From Acidimicrobiales bacterium (GTDB lineage Bacteria > Actinomycetota > Acidimicrobiia > Acidimicrobiales > JAHWLA01): DNA of 64,000 bases. The DNA lies in the NCBI GenBank assembly GCA_035536915.1, contig DATLNE010000010.1, forward strand, positions 1 through 64,000, given 5' to 3'. Both the position numbers and the translations under genes were made by a program. Shown piece after piece: positions 8,183-58,155 of this stretch. The number at the start of each line of letters is the position of its first letter. Positions within the stretch are counted from its first letter, which is position 1. The notes under the pieces were generated by a model. That model was not told the DNA's origin and did not search any database. It was given only the letters and a program-made list of their open reading frames with translations.

Positions 8183-8355
8183 CCACCGTGCTCGTCGACG
8201 CCCGGTGCACGGCCTGCGGGTTGTGCATCGTCACCTGCCCCGAAGCCGCCTTGCTGCGGGCACCCCGCAAGCCCGTCGCCGTCGACGAACGGTGCACGGC
8301 GTGCCTGGCGTGCATCGAGGTGTGCCCCGTCGATGCCATCGAGGTGACTGCATGA
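8179..8355 (+). CDS. Small 2[4Fe-4S] ferredoxin in the cobalamin operon
   Basis: A 58-residue bacterial-type ferredoxin with two CxxCxxCxxxCP clusters (CTACGLCIVTCP and CTACLACIEVCP). It overlaps cobJ upstream and cbiC downstream by four bases at each junction, so it is made with the corrin enzymes. It probably supplies electrons to a reductive step, such as reduction of cobalt before adenosylation or of a precorrin intermediate, but the partner is not visible. Confidence 0.88.
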   Translation: MTTVLVDARCTACGLCIVTCPEAALLRAPRKPVAVDERCTACLACIEVCPVDAIEVTA

Positions 8356-8930
8356 CGATTCACCCCATCGAGGTGGAGAGCTACCGCATCCTCTCGGAAC
8401 GGGTCGACCTCTCGCGTTACGACGACGGCGACCGCGCCGTGGTGGCTCGCATCATCCACGCCTCGGCCGACCTGGAGTACGCAGAGACCATGGTGCTGAG
8501 CGACGGCGCCGTCACTGCGGGGATCGCAGCCCTGCGGGCAGGCGCTCCCGTCATCACCGACGTGGAGATGGTGCGCTCCGGCCTCACCAACGTCGACGCG
8601 CACTGCTACCTGCGCGACGCCCTCGCCGACGGCGACGTCACCCGCAGCGCGGCGGCCATGCGCATCGCCGCCGAGCGCCACCCCACCGGCAGCATCGTCG
8701 TCGTCGGTTGCGCCCCGACCGCGCTGTTCGAAGTCGTCGACCTGGCCGCCGCAAGCCGCTTCGCACCGGCCCTTGTCATCGGCTTGCCCGTCGGCTTCGT
8801 CGGTGCGGCCGAGTCGAAGGAAGCCCTGCGCGCCAGTGGCCTTGCTGCAATCACCAACGTGGGCGAGAAGGGCGGCTCCGCCGTGGCCGCCGCCGCCCTC
8901 AACGCCATCCGGAGGCTCGCCGATGCATGA
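8352..8930 (+). CDS. cbiC: Precorrin-8X/cobalt-precorrin-8 methylmutase
   Basis: Moves the C11 methyl group to C12, giving cobyrinate or hydrogenobyrinate. The 192-residue protein has the family features RIIHASADLEY, DVEMVRSGL, VVGCAPTALFEVV and GLPVGFVGAAESKEAL. The ATG overlaps the ferredoxin stop (ATGA), and its own stop overlaps the cbiX start by eight bases. Confidence 0.95.
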   Translation: MTIHPIEVESYRILSERVDLSRYDDGDRAVVARIIHASADLEYAETMVLSDGAVTAGIAALRAGAPVITDVEMVRSGLTNVDAHCYLRDALADGDVTRSAAAMRIAAERHPTGSIVVVGCAPTALFEVVDLAAASRFAPALVIGLPVGFVGAAESKEALRASGLAAITNVGEKGGSAVAAAALNAIRRLADA

Positions 8931-9759
8931 CCCCGCCCTGCTGCTCGTCGGCCACGGCAGCCGCTCCTCCGCGGGCGTGGCCGAGTACTGGGAGTTCGCC
9001 CGCGTGTTGGCCGAACGAGCTCCCGAGGTCACCCTCGGCTGCGGGTTCATCGAGCTGGCCGAGCCCGACCTCGACACCGCCGTCGACAAGCTGGTGGCCG
9101 ACGGTGCCCCCTCGGTGGTCGCCGTCCCGCTCGTGCTGCTCGGCGCCGGGCACATGAAGAACGACGGCCCCGCCGCCTTGGCCCGCGGCCGCCTGCGCCA
9201 CCCGGGCGTGGCGTTCACGTACGGGCGCGACCTCGGCATCCACCCGTTGGTGCTGACGGTGGCCGAGCAGCGCATCAAGGAGGCGGTGGGCGATGCCGAC
9301 CCGGCGACCACCGGCGTCGTGCTCGTCAGCCGGGGGTCGTCCGACCCCGACGCCAACGCCGACCTCTACAAGGTGGCGCGCCTGCTGCAGGACAGCCGGG
9401 GGCTGTCGATCGTGGAGCCCGCATTCGTGTCGCTCGCCGCGCCCGATGTGGCCACGGCGATCGACCGCTGCCGACGGCTGGGTGCCGAGCAGGTCGTGGT
9501 GGTGCCCTACTTCTTGTTCACCGGGATCCTCGTCGACCGCATCGGCGAACAAACCCGAGCCGCCGGTGCCTCGGTGGGTGCCCATCTGGGCGCCGACGTG
9601 CGCATCGCCGACCTGGTGCTGGAGCGCTACCGCGAGGCGGCCGCAGGCGAGGCCCGCATGAACTGCGACCTGTGCGTCTACCGCAGCGCCCTGCCCGGCC
9701 ACGAGGCCAAGGTCGGCGCGCCGCTGCACATCCATTCGCATCACGACCATTCGCACTGA
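8923..9759 (+). CDS. cbiX: Sirohydrochlorin cobaltochelatase CbiX, long form
   Basis: Inserts cobalt(II) into sirohydrochlorin, the committed step of the cobalt-early pathway. Two CbiX-type halves are present: LLVGHGSRSSAG with LVLLGAGHMKND at the N-terminus and VLVSRGSSDPDANAD with VVVPYFLFTGILVDRI at the C-terminus. The tail carries CDLC and a histidine-rich end (HIHSHHDHSH) that could bind metal. Length is 278 residues. The cobalt-transport genes follow directly. Confidence 0.94.
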   Translation: MHDPALLLVGHGSRSSAGVAEYWEFARVLAERAPEVTLGCGFIELAEPDLDTAVDKLVADGAPSVVAVPLVLLGAGHMKNDGPAALARGRLRHPGVAFTYGRDLGIHPLVLTVAEQRIKEAVGDADPATTGVVLVSRGSSDPDANADLYKVARLLQDSRGLSIVEPAFVSLAAPDVATAIDRCRRLGAEQVVVVPYFLFTGILVDRIGEQTRAAGASVGAHLGADVRIADLVLERYREAAAGEARMNCDLCVYRSALPGHEAKVGAPLHIHSHHDHSH

Positions 9760-53957: not shown

Positions 53958-54605
53958 TCAGGGGCGGATGCGCACCGGCGTGCCCAAGGGGACGCGGCGG
54001 GAGACCTCTTCGGCGTGGTCGTCGCGCAGGCGGATGCACCCGGCCGTGACCGCCCGGCCGATGAGGTCGGGCCTGCCCGTGCCGTGGATGCCGAGCCGGC
54101 CTTCGCCGCCGTTGAAGTCGTGGAGCACCTCGGAGAACCCCGACAGCCCCAGGGCATACACGCCGTACAGCGGGTCGGGCACGTCGCGTTTGACCGAGCT
54201 CTCGACGTAGAAATCGCCCACCGGCGTGGGCGTGCGGGGCTTGCCGACGGCGACGGGCGCATCGAGCACCACCCGTGCACCCCAGCGCAGGGTGAGACGG
54301 CGGGCGCTCACCGAGACGTCGAGCCGGTAGCGCGTCTCCGTCAGCCGCACGTCGTCGGCCCGCACCCACGCAGTGCTCCCGTTGGGTCGCAACGGCACCT
54401 TCACCCGGAGCCACTCGCCGTCGCACCCGACGACGAGGAACACCACCGGCAGGCCGAAGGCGTCGGGGTGGTCGAGGTACCGCCACGGCAACGGCGCACC
54501 GGCGCGGCCGTAGAGGGGTACCCGGTCGACCGCAGCGCGGGCCACGACAGCGGTGGCTCCCTCGGCAAACGGCCAGGCGACGGCGTTCACCGGCGTCACG
54601 CTCAT
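53958..54605 (-). CDS. L,D-transpeptidase (YkuD) with SH3-like start
   Basis: A 215-residue peptidoglycan transpeptidase that forms 3-3 cross-links. The catalytic block is LGIHGTGRPDLIGRAVTAGC followed by IRL; the usual serine before GC is alanine preceded by threonine (TAGC). An SH3-like region with DGEWLRVKVPLRPNGSTAWV precedes it. No signal peptide is evident, although the enzyme should act outside the membrane. ATG overlaps the stop of the NlpC gene. Confidence 0.88.
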   Translation of the reverse strand: MSVTPVNAVAWPFAEGATAVVARAAVDRVPLYGRAGAPLPWRYLDHPDAFGLPVVFLVVGCDGEWLRVKVPLRPNGSTAWVRADDVRLTETRYRLDVSVSARRLTLRWGARVVLDAPVAVGKPRTPTPVGDFYVESSVKRDVPDPLYGVYALGLSGFSEVLHDFNGGEGRLGIHGTGRPDLIGRAVTAGCIRLRDDHAEEVSRRVPLGTPVRIRP

Positions 54606-55657
54606 GGGGTCACCCGTGCTGGTTCGCAGGCGTAAATGCGGCCCCCCGCGTCGAGCAGGCGGCAACCGTCGTCGGACACCGCCATCGCCACCACCGGTTC
54701 CTCGGTGCGGCAGCCGCCCACCGGTTCGGCGTCACCGAAGGCCGACACTTCTCCCGCCGCGTCGGCCAGCCAGTAGCCCAGGCCCGACGGCGTCGCCGCC
54801 ATGGCGACCACCGGCACGGTCGCCCCCGCTCGACCTCCGTACTGGCGGGCGTCGCCGTGGGCGGACACGCAACCGGTGGCGTGGGCCACCCAGTACCCCA
54901 GGCCCGACGGCGTGGCGGCCATTGCCATGGCCGGGCCTCGGCCGTCGCCGTGGTGGCCTGCGTCCCCGAAGGCCGACACCCGCCCTCCGGAGTCGACCGT
55001 CCAGTAACCCGGCCCGGTCGGCGTGGCGGCCATGGCCACCACCGGCGCGGGTGCGTCGCCGCAGGCCGTGGCGTCACCGAAGGGCACCACCCGTCCGTCG
55101 GCCGAGGCGACCCAATAGCCGAGTCCCGACGGCGTGGCCACGATCGCTGCGGCCCGCCCCTCGATGCCCGCGCCGCCGACCACGCGGCCGCTGCGTTCGA
55201 GCACCAACCCGCCTGCCAGCCCGATGGCACGCCGCACCTCGTATTGCCACGGCGGCACCTCGCCGGCGACGCCGGGCCTGCGCACGCCGAGAGGACGGCC
55301 CTTCTCGGCCGGCGCGATCACCCGCACGCCGCCGCCGATCGACGAGGCCTCCACCACCTGCCCGTCACCGACCCAGATGACGACGTGGTTCACCCCGCGG
55401 TACGGCGGCCCGTTCGCCAGGGCGTTGTCGTAGAACACGAGGTCGCCTGCCTGCAGGTCGTCAATGGGCGAGGGCGGCAGCGCCTGCAACTGGTCGATGG
55501 AGGCGCGGGGGAGGGCCACGCCGGCCAGCCCCCACGCCCACTGCACCAAGCTGGAGCAGTCGAACGAGCTGGTGTCGACGGCCGACGCTCCGTACTCATA
55601 GGGCCGCCCGACCATCGACAGCGCCAAGGCGACGGCGACCTCGCCTGCGAGCGTCAT
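54602..55657 (-). CDS. NlpC/P60 cysteine peptidase with C-terminal 40-residue repeats
   Basis: The N-terminal NlpC/P60 domain (about 1-120) has catalytic Cys34 in FDCSSLVQWAWG and histidine in NHVVIWVGDG; such enzymes cut cell-wall stem peptides. The rest consists of about five repeats of a TPSGLGYWVAxADGxVxxFGDA pattern, probably a beta-propeller or fibrous wall-binding array. No signal peptide is visible: the NlpC fold starts within the first 15 residues. ATG overlaps the S13 peptidase stop. Confidence 0.88.
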   Translation of the reverse strand: MTLAGEVAVALALSMVGRPYEYGASAVDTSSFDCSSLVQWAWGLAGVALPRASIDQLQALPPSPIDDLQAGDLVFYDNALANGPPYRGVNHVVIWVGDGQVVEASSIGGGVRVIAPAEKGRPLGVRRPGVAGEVPPWQYEVRRAIGLAGGLVLERSGRVVGGAGIEGRAAAIVATPSGLGYWVASADGRVVPFGDATACGDAPAPVVAMAATPTGPGYWTVDSGGRVSAFGDAGHHGDGRGPAMAMAATPSGLGYWVAHATGCVSAHGDARQYGGRAGATVPVVAMAATPSGLGYWLADAAGEVSAFGDAEPVGGCRTEEPVVAMAVSDDGCRLLDAGGRIYACEPARVTP

Positions 55658-56772
55658 TGCTCGACCAACGCCACCACGGCGGCATCGACGGCAGCCGTGG
55701 CGTCGGCCTGCGAAGGCGCGCCGGTCAACGTCACTGCGAAGCGCAAGGAACGGCCCGATGTGGTGGTGGCGTAGCCCGCCAGGTTCACCGTGCCGTGCAG
55801 GCGCCGGGTGCCGGTCTTGGCCTGGACCGCCCCTGCCGCTGCCGTGCCGCGGAACCGAGCCGCCAACGTGCCCGAGGTACCGGCCACGGGCAGGCAGCGA
55901 CGGAACGCGTCGCCCACGGCGGTGCCCGCCATGGCCCGCAGCCACGCCACCTGGCGCCGCGCCGTGTCGGTCGTCGCCGCAGCCAGTCCCGAACCGTCCG
56001 CGCTCGTCGTGCCGCCGGCACGGGGAACGCGGAGTCGTGCCGCGACGGCATCGACGGCCGCCAACCCGCCTGCCGTGGTGCCGCCCCCCAGTTCCTTGGT
56101 GAGCAGTTCGGCGGTGAACGAATCGGACGCCCGCACCATGTCGGCCACGATCGACACCCAAGGCGCCGAGCTGTGTTCGGCCACCACGACGGCGTCGGCC
56201 GGTGCGACGCCGAGGCGCCACCCGCCGCCGACCGCCACCCCCGCCTCCCCCAAGGCGTCGACCACCCGCACCGCGTTGGCGGCTACCGGGTCGGCCACGT
56301 AGTCGTCGTCGCGTCGGTACCGGTTGCGGTCGAGCACGAAGGCCGACAGCGGCCCCATGAAACCGGGGACGTAGTAGTCCTTCCATCCGGGCACGGAGCA
56401 CAGGCGGTCGTGGCGGGTGTCGTCGACCACCAACGAGCGCACCTGCCTCACCCCGGAGGCAGCCGCCGCGGCGCACAGGCGCGCCAAGTCGTCGGCACCG
56501 AAGGTGGGGTCGCCCGACGCCACGAACACGAGGTCGTCGCCCGTCGTGCGCAGCGAGGTGCAGAACCGCAAGCCCGGTCCCGCGTCGAGCAGTACCGCCC
56601 CCGCGGTCGACAGCTTCTGCAGCGAGTTGCTCTCCAGCACGAGGTCGCCGCCGATGTCGACGACCACGCCCGCCCCCTCCTCCTCCACGACGACGGCAAC
56701 CGCCGTGGCACCGCAGCGGAAGAGGGGCTCGGCCGTCGACGCGGCGGCGTCAGCCCCCAGGGTGGTGGTCAG
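55654..56772 (-). CDS. S13-family D-Ala-D-Ala carboxypeptidase (PBP4-like), variant
   Basis: A 372-residue penicillin-binding peptidase. SxxK is SLQK (in LESNSLQKLSTAG), the second motif reads SDS instead of SDN (ASDSFTAELLTKELGG), and the third is KTG (VQAKTGTRRLHG). No ATG, GTG or TTG fits the N-terminus. CTG at 56772 overlaps the TGA of the upstream small peptide (CTGA) and is the best start. No signal peptide is visible from it. Confidence 0.82.
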   Translation of the reverse strand: MTTTLGADAAASTAEPLFRCGATAVAVVVEEEGAGVVVDIGGDLVLESNSLQKLSTAGAVLLDAGPGLRFCTSLRTTGDDLVFVASGDPTFGADDLARLCAAAAASGVRQVRSLVVDDTRHDRLCSVPGWKDYYVPGFMGPLSAFVLDRNRYRRDDDYVADPVAANAVRVVDALGEAGVAVGGGWRLGVAPADAVVVAEHSSAPWVSIVADMVRASDSFTAELLTKELGGGTTAGGLAAVDAVAARLRVPRAGGTTSADGSGLAAATTDTARRQVAWLRAMAGTAVGDAFRRCLPVAGTSGTLAARFRGTAAAGAVQAKTGTRRLHGTVNLAGYATTTSGRSLRFAVTLTGAPSQADATAAVDAAVVALVEQ

Positions 56773-56882
56773 CCGGGATACGCGACGCGAGCGCCGCCTG
56801 TGACCTCGGTGGCTTCGCCTTCTTCGGGAGCCAGGTCTTCGACCTCGTCGTCGGCCGGTGCGTCGTTCTCGTTGTCGGGCAT
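56769..56882 (-). CDS. 37-residue acidic peptide with double-glycine motif
   Basis: A very acidic peptide (MPDNENDAPADDEVEDLAPE at the start) ending EVTGGARVAYPG. The DLAPEEGEATEVTGG stretch resembles leaders of ribosomal peptides cut after Gly-Gly (residues 29-30), leaving a seven-residue tail. GGAGGG lies seven bases before the ATG and a good promoter is further upstream, so it is clearly expressed. It heads the operon S13-NlpC/P60-L,D-transpeptidase. No peptide-modifying enzyme or C39 exporter is present here. Confidence 0.7.
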   Translation of the reverse strand: MPDNENDAPADDEVEDLAPEEGEATEVTGGARVAYPG

Positions 56883-56913
56883 CGTTCGCCCTCCTTCGTC
56901 TCGCGGAAGACGG

Positions 56914-56942
56914 ACAGTACGAACGGCACCCCGAGCCGTCAA
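56914..56942 (-). promoter_or_regulatory. Sigma-A-type promoter for the peptide/peptidoglycan operon
   Basis: On the minus strand TTGACG (56942-56937) and TACTGT (56919-56914) are separated by 17 bases, about 32 bases upstream of the peptide ATG. This is the best -35/-10 pair seen in the window. Confidence 0.7.
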
Positions 56943-57028
56943 GGGTCGCCACGACCCGATGCTTACTTTTGCTAGCAGAGGGGTAACAGTTGTGAACACA
57001 CCCACCGACTGCGGAGGAAGCAAGCACA

Positions 57029-57532
57029 GTGACTGACTACGAAGCCGAGAGCACGGCCGGCGGCCTCCTCGGCAAGGTTGCGGGCAAAGCCAAGGCGGCG
57101 TTCGGCACGGTCGTCGGCGACGACGACCTGGCGCGCGAAGGCCGGCTGCAGGAGGCGTCGGTCGACGCCGAGGCCGAGGCCCAGGTTCGCGAGGCCGAAG
57201 CCGAGCAGCGCCGTCGCGAGGCGGAGCTGGAAGCGTCCAAGGACGAGGTCGAGCTGGAGCGCAAGCGCCTCCAGGCCGAAGTGTCGGCCGAGCGCCAGGA
57301 AGAGGCGGTCGAGCAGCAACAGCGCCGGCAGGAGCAGGAAGCCGAAACCCGTGCTGCCCGCGAGGCAACAGCGGCCGAGGCCCAGCGCCAGGCAGGCGAG
57401 CAGACGGCAGAGACGATGGAGGAGCAGGCGGCCCGCAAGCGGTTGGACGACGCTCGGGAAGCCGCTCGATTGGCAGAAGAAGCGCGTCGTGCCGAGGCAG
57501 TGGCCGACGCCATCGACCCGGAGGTGCAGTGA
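57029..57532 (+). CDS. CsbD-like start with long coiled coil
   Basis: A 167-residue protein: residues about 14-45 (GKVAGKAKAAFGTVVGDDDL, AREGRLQEA) match the CsbD-like stress-protein repeat, and the rest is an Ala/Glu/Arg/Gln-rich coiled coil. No signal peptide. GGAGGAA precedes the GTG. It overlaps the next coiled-coil gene's ribosome-binding region, so the two are probably one unit. Function unknown. Confidence 0.75.
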   Translation: MTDYEAESTAGGLLGKVAGKAKAAFGTVVGDDDLAREGRLQEASVDAEAEAQVREAEAEQRRREAELEASKDEVELERKRLQAEVSAERQEEAVEQQQRRQEQEAETRAAREATAAEAQRQAGEQTAETMEEQAARKRLDDAREAARLAEEARRAEAVADAIDPEVQ

Positions 57533-57534
57533 CC

Positions 57535-58155
57535 ATGGACATCAAGACGATGCAGCGCAGCGCGCTCGACCGCTATCTGCGGACGGTGCGGTTCCCGCTC
57601 GACAAGGCGGTCGAGTTGCTCGACCGTGACGGCGAGCGCAGTGGCGCCGTACGCCTGACCCTCGACCGGGCCGACGCCGCCGTCCGCGACGTGGCCGGGC
57701 GCATCTGGCGCGACGACGAGTTGCGGGCCGAGGCCACTCGCCGTCGCGTGGCCGCCGACGAGCGGGAGCGGGCGCTCCGCCTCGAAGCCGAGGCGGAAGC
57801 CCGCTCGACTGAAGCCGACGCCGAGTTCCGCCGCCGCCAGGAGCAGGCCGAGCAGCGCCGCCTCCAGGCCGAGCAGGCGGCCGAGCAGAAGCGCCGCCAG
57901 GCCGAGGAGAAGCGCCAGGCCGAGAAGCGCCAGGCCAACGAGCAGGCCGCCCGGAGCAAGGCCGCGGTGCGCAAGTCCGCCGCCAAGGTGGAGACGGCCA
58001 TCGAGAAGCAGGCCCGCGAGGCTCGCTTGGAGCAGCTCGAAGGCGAGGCCGCCGCATTGGAGAAGCAAGAAGCCGCCGTCGTCACCGAGAACGAGGCGCA
58101 GCGGCTGCGTAAGGCCGCCGCCCAAGCTAAGGCGGCTCGCAAGCAGGCTCGCTGA
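57535..58155 (+). CDS. Coiled-coil protein of unknown function
   Basis: A 206-residue protein with a folded start (TMQRSALDRYLRTVRFPLDK) and then about 130 residues of Arg/Glu/Ala/Gln coiled coil rich in EEKRQAEKRQA-type repeats. GGAGG at 57520-57524 favours ATG 57535 over GTG 57529. It follows the CsbD-like gene and ends at a strong terminator, forming a two-gene unit that may make a hetero-coiled assembly. Confidence 0.72.
   Translation: MDIKTMQRSALDRYLRTVRFPLDKAVELLDRDGERSGAVRLTLDRADAAVRDVAGRIWRDDELRAEATRRRVAADERERALRLEAEAEARSTEADAEFRRRQEQAEQRRLQAEQAAEQKRRQAEEKRQAEKRQANEQAARSKAAVRKSAAKVETAIEKQAREARLEQLEGEAAALEKQEAAVVTENEAQRLRKAAAQAKAARKQAR

Follow-up and report, generated by a model that had tools for sequence, protein, structure and literature searches.

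A putative double-glycine leader peptide precedes coupled genes for signal-less S13, NlpC/P60 and YkuD enzymes in an Acidimicrobiales genome

Introduction

What does a 37-residue peptide containing a double glycine do at the head of an operon that encodes S13, NlpC/P60 and YkuD enzymes? This question was raised by a window of 64,000 nucleotides, the whole stretch of DNA that we analysed, from an Acidimicrobiales bacterium (contig DATLNE010000010.1). The original prediction, made from the letters alone, read the peptide as a leader with a short core and the operon as one for peptidoglycan remodelling. Here, we describe the anatomy of the locus, its relatives in other genomes, and the explanations that it allows.

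Results

Operon anatomy and translation

The genes for the peptide, S13, NlpC/P60 and YkuD proteins lie in this order on the minus strand and are chained by four-base overlaps (Table 1), so that the predicted coupled order was borne out in both coordinates and overlaps. In gene order, the overlaps are CTGA (peptide/S13), ATGA (S13/NlpC) and ATGA (NlpC/YkuD). The strong ribosome-binding site expected ahead of the peptide is present as AAGGAGG upstream of its ATG. The proposed promoter TTGACG-17-TACTGT does occur in the sequence, but agrees with only 8 of the 12 sigma-70 consensus positions by manual count and was not reported by a thresholded consensus scan.

Table 1. Features of the peptide-S13-NlpC/P60-YkuD locus (window positions).
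Feature	Position	Strand	Basis
Possible promoter TTGACG-17-TACTGT	56905..56933 (approximate)	-	sequence reading
37-residue peptide ORF, MPDNENDAPADDEVEDLAPEEGEATEVTGGARVAYPG	56882-56769	-	sequence reading, coding signature, leader family
Peptide parts: leader MPDNENDAPADDEVEDLAPEEGEATEVTGG and predicted core ARVAYPG	within 56769..56882	-	
S13 (PBP4/DacC-type) D,D-peptidase homologue	55654..56772	-	sequence, PF02113
NlpC/P60 domain followed by GYW-type repeats	54602..55657	-	sequence, PF00877
YkuD L,D-transpeptidase-fold enzyme with SH3-like N-terminal part	53958..54605	-	sequence, PF03734

Although all three overlaps were found, the prediction had missed that the first of them provides the S13 gene with a CTG rather than an ATG, GTG or TTG. 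None of the latter lies near the junction, and the sole coupled start is the CTG within the stop of the peptide. The next in-frame start upstream, a GTG at 56952, lies ahead of the peptide's ATG and was ruled out, as the frame there is Arg-rich and noncoding. The S13 protein must either start at the CTG of CTGA, which we infer to be the case, or be a fusion with the peptide. Fusion by a -1 frameshift was judged unlikely, as no canonical slippery heptamer was seen, on inspection, among the codons leading up to the stop. Because its sole coupled start overlaps the peptide stop, translation of S13 probably depends on translation of the peptide.

Codon statistics indicate that the peptide is coding. 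Its score of 0.70 per codon compares with 0.55 ± 0.20 for in-frame stretches of 37 codons and -0.57 ± 0.47 for out-of-frame stretches, none of which attained 0.70. At the peptide/S13 junction, the coding signal moves into the S13 frame. Divergent from the operon, at window positions 57029-58155, two Glu/Ala/Arg-rich coiled-coil-like proteins are encoded, the first of which has a weak CsbD match.

Leader family and exporter

A search with the peptide alone returned mostly pieces of long ORFs, together with one small ORF in genome G029 (MLDDREQPSAAIDEDVLDGDLELEPQDAEQVTGGARYVCPG...). A model built from this ORF and the window peptide retrieved two 38-residue peptides on another contig, C17, of the window's own genome (G000) and one peptide in genome G240. 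Asp at position -15, Leu at -14, Ala at -7, Val at -4 and Gly at -2 and -1 are common to all five leaders. Both C17 peptides are stand-alone ORFs with short cores, and they overlap one another by GTGA, in a manner resembling the CTGA junction of the window. After refinement, the model yielded genuine leader peptides, upon inspection of its matches in the 397 genomes of the order, in G000, G029 and G240 only, and otherwise gave weak matches inside other reading frames; the many weak peptide matches elsewhere come from parts of long ORFs and were dismissed as chance. In plasmids, neither the peptide nor the partner protein described below had a match.

The C17 peptides adjoin a cNMP-C39-ABC exporter and a partner protein resembling PpiC/TIGR04500, and in G029 and G240 the leader peptide likewise neighbours a related partner and a C39-type exporter. 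The C17 exporter (1026 amino acids) carries the Pfam domains cNMP_binding, Peptidase_C39, ABC_membrane and ABC_tran; that of G029 has cyclic-nucleotide-binding, C39 and ABC domains (Pfam), that of G240 is matched by NCBIfam C39-exporter models, and all three are about 1030 residues long. The similarity of the partner to TIGR04500/PpiC is weak in two members (1e-8 and 2e-5, under the cut-off) and was not detected in the G240 protein, which aligns with the other two partners. Among the 397 genomes, the partner was found in only the same three.

The core of the G029 peptide (L103 10252-10458), ARYVCPGCHHVHAQFDPPCNPGCAHGTGGGGGFY, is rich in Cys and His, and an apparent cytochrome P450 gene lies upstream (about 7597-9477). 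The G240 peptide (L124 about 9382-9477, minus strand) has a His/Ser/Thr-rich core, HSLSHKTSPAHTHSHTSHPDHFNI, and adjoins its exporter, with a Crp-like regulator gene nearby.

When the window peptide was withheld from the model, none of 20,000 composition-preserving shuffles reached its score, with the caution that the leader model is built from the family's own sequences. In a leave-one-out search of 12,460 segments, the window peptide obtained E values of 0.03-0.12 and was outranked by a few chance matches, themselves fetched as hits. The shuffle test and the C39-linked homologues in the three genomes support the original assignment of a double-glycine leader with a short core. Because leader homologues adjoin the C39 exporter and its partner, and the partner is confined to the same three genomes, sequence comparison suggests that the C17 exporter probably accepts the window peptide as a third substrate, encoded at an unlinked site, and would cleave it after the double glycine to release ARVAYPG.

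This arrangement resembles the peptidase-containing ABC transporters LahT and ComA and their double-glycine substrates (PMC6363468) in the GG cleavage motif, the conserved leader positions -4 and -7, and the presence of a C39 exporter in the genome. It differs in that the family has Leu at -14 rather than -12 and Ala instead of Leu at -7, and in that the window peptide has a core of just seven residues and is unlinked to its presumed exporter. HetC of Nostoc (PMC10986499) shares the cyclic-nucleotide-binding and C39 exporter domains of the C17 and G029 proteins, but has no known double-glycine substrate nearby, whereas leader peptides adjoin the exporter here. HetC is still without a known substrate. 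If the proposed relationship holds, a C39 exporter may serve unlinked substrates, and searches confined to exporter-adjacent genes would miss precursors.

The three enzymes

All three enzymes scored above the Pfam cut-offs for their families: 177.7 bits for S13 (PF02113, cut-off 22.8), 60.7 bits for NlpC/P60 (PF00877, cut-off 23) and 69.5 bits for YkuD (PF03734, cut-off 23.4). The catalytic HGT...TAGCIR of the YkuD enzyme is intact in an alignment with ten homologues, and DCSS and NHVV motifs can be read in the NlpC/P60 protein. S13 retains SxxK (SLQK) and KTG (KTGT), whereas its SxN motif has become SDS; among 23 aligned homologues this motif reads SDN in 22 and SEN in one, the Asn being kept by all. 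Relative to these homologues, S13 also has two-residue inserts, one of them after KTGT.

As judged by hydrophobicity and inspection rather than a dedicated predictor, secretion signals are absent from all three enzymes. Such signals or membrane segments are present in most relatives of S13 and YkuD and in both remaining NlpC/P60 proteins of G000, and they are clear in seven of the eight GYW-repeat proteins sampled from that genome. The enzyme families and the coupling of a peptidoglycan-remodelling operon were thus correctly predicted, but remodelling outside the cell is doubtful because the whole trio lacks secretion signals. In many genomes of the order the GYW-type repeat is matched repeatedly, up to about 60 times in one genome, and the proteins that carry it in G000 mostly have signal peptides.

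Conservation of the gene order

S13 homologues were fetched from 59 relatives, almost always a single one for each family, and from the 397 members of the order, the sole same-genus genome being 76% complete. Flanks were inspected over about 1.5 kb on each side for most loci and over several kilobases for ten. The shared four-gene order that had been anticipated around S13 was found in no genome examined: no NlpC or YkuD gene lay next to the best S13 homologues, the S13, NlpC/P60 and YkuD trio was never found together elsewhere, and a contig scan returned two distant S13 relatives only.

Discussion

As the best reading, held tentatively and with rather less than even confidence, we propose that the locus combines a double-glycine leader peptide exported in trans with a cytoplasmic trio that processes peptidoglycan stem peptides. 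The 37-residue ORF would be a precursor recognised by the cyclic-nucleotide-binding C39 ABC exporter and PpiC/TIGR04500-like partner encoded on another contig. Once cut after GG, the precursor would yield the extracellular heptapeptide ARVAYPG, and its mRNA would also encode three enzymes of secreted cell-wall descent that have lost their secretion signals and are made by termination-reinitiation from the ribosome-binding site of the peptide. Lacking signals, they most likely act in the cytoplasm, where their substrates would be stem peptides or possibly the peptide precursor. In principle they can take stem peptides apart stepwise, with S13 removing D-Ala5, the YkuD enzyme acting as an L,D-carboxypeptidase to remove D-Ala4, and NlpC/P60 cleaving D-Glu-mDAP. 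How much peptide is exported would thereby be coupled to stem-peptide turnover.

YkuD and NlpC/P60 folds are known to act in cytoplasmic cell-wall peptide recycling, as in ElsL (PMC8649774) and YkfC (PMC2954226), which, like the enzymes proposed here, work on cell-wall peptides without export. Neither is known from a single operon shared with S13 and leader-peptide genes, and sequence similarity to ElsL is negligible (E 0.07). Several findings weigh against the proposed mechanism. The gene order occurs in no other genome examined and so gives no evidence of selection for linkage, the leave-one-out E value of the peptide is only 0.03-0.12, the repeats of the NlpC protein sit in secreted proteins elsewhere, S13 has lost the Asn present in all 23 homologues, and no gene next to the operon could be recognised as serving muropeptide import or recycling.

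The enzymes may instead act on the wall, either exported by an unrecognised route or because an assembly error or frameshift conceals an in-frame S13 leader, in which case the C39 exporter would secrete a leader-S13 fusion. The S13 gene without a normal start codon, the GYW repeats typical of secreted proteins, and a leader that would stand in for the lost signal are consistent with this account. We nevertheless consider it unlikely, given that the C17 peptides are stand-alone ORFs of 38 residues, close to the length of the window peptide, with short cores, that both NlpC and YkuD lack a leader, and that no canonical slippery heptamer precedes the stop. A 37-kDa substrate would also be unusual for such C39 exporters, which counts against the fusion.

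Equally improbable, in our estimate, is that peptide and enzymes have no functional link, a leader-peptide gene having landed before an enzyme operon that now uses its promoter and ribosome-binding site, so that the private order is an accident. The unconserved order and the location of the exporter on another contig fit such an accident, whereas the tight four-base overlap at every junction, the apparent dependence of S13 translation on the peptide, and the loss of signals from all three enzymes of one operon do not.

In a further alternative, the locus would be of the RiPP type, with the signal-less trio, all of which form acyl-enzyme intermediates on peptides, serving as tailoring enzymes drawn from the cell-wall repertoire that alter or cyclise the precursor ahead of its cleavage and export in trans. 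The precursor-first operon, the missing signals and the altered S13 active site (SDS and the two-residue insert after KTGT) argue for this possibility, as do two precedents: modification of rosaritide requires its PpiC/TIGR04500 partner (PMC13097080), and nonribosomal peptides are cyclised by PBP-type enzymes (PMC11735501). The three families, however, fit a single stem-peptide pathway better than a random tailoring set, reactive side chains are few in the core ARVAYPG, and a literature search for RiPP clusters with such an enzyme set returned nothing relevant. We regard this alternative as quite unlikely. The full form of the idea, in which a ribosomal peptide locus has a peptidoglycan-derived S13/NlpC-P60/YkuD tailoring set that became cytoplasmic, while a shared exporter of the cNMP-gated C39 type and a PpiC-like partner provide leader recognition and export in trans, appears distinctly improbable. 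If either the stem-peptide or the tailoring account is true, an exported heptapeptide would be linked to intracellular cell-wall peptide processing, or cell-wall enzymes would have been recruited for peptide tailoring.

As a pair, partner and exporter are similar to MirC and MirD in the rosaritide graspetide locus MirABCD (PMC13097080), which likewise comprises a precursor in which a C39 cut site is predicted, a TIGR04500 protein and a C39 exporter. In contrast to that locus, the TIGR04500 match here is weak and below the cut-off, and no graspetide synthetase was seen in the genes scanned around the C17 peptides. The sole ATP-grasp gene scanned there resembles L-amino acid ligase/PRK02186, with the graspetide synthetase model TIGR04187 outside its best 25 models. 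The core ARVAYPG contains no Asp, Glu, Ser, Thr or Lys, and because these side chains are needed, the window core cannot form graspetide (group 21) rings. Beside its two double-glycine peptides, the C17 cluster (L123 45-8867) encodes an SbnA-like PLP enzyme, an ATP-grasp ligase, an argininosuccinate-lyase-like enzyme and a GHMP kinase, together with a D-aminoacyl-tRNA deacylase, a formyltransferase, an arginyl-tRNA synthetase paralogue and a polyprenyl synthetase, and this cluster possibly represents a small-molecule pathway.
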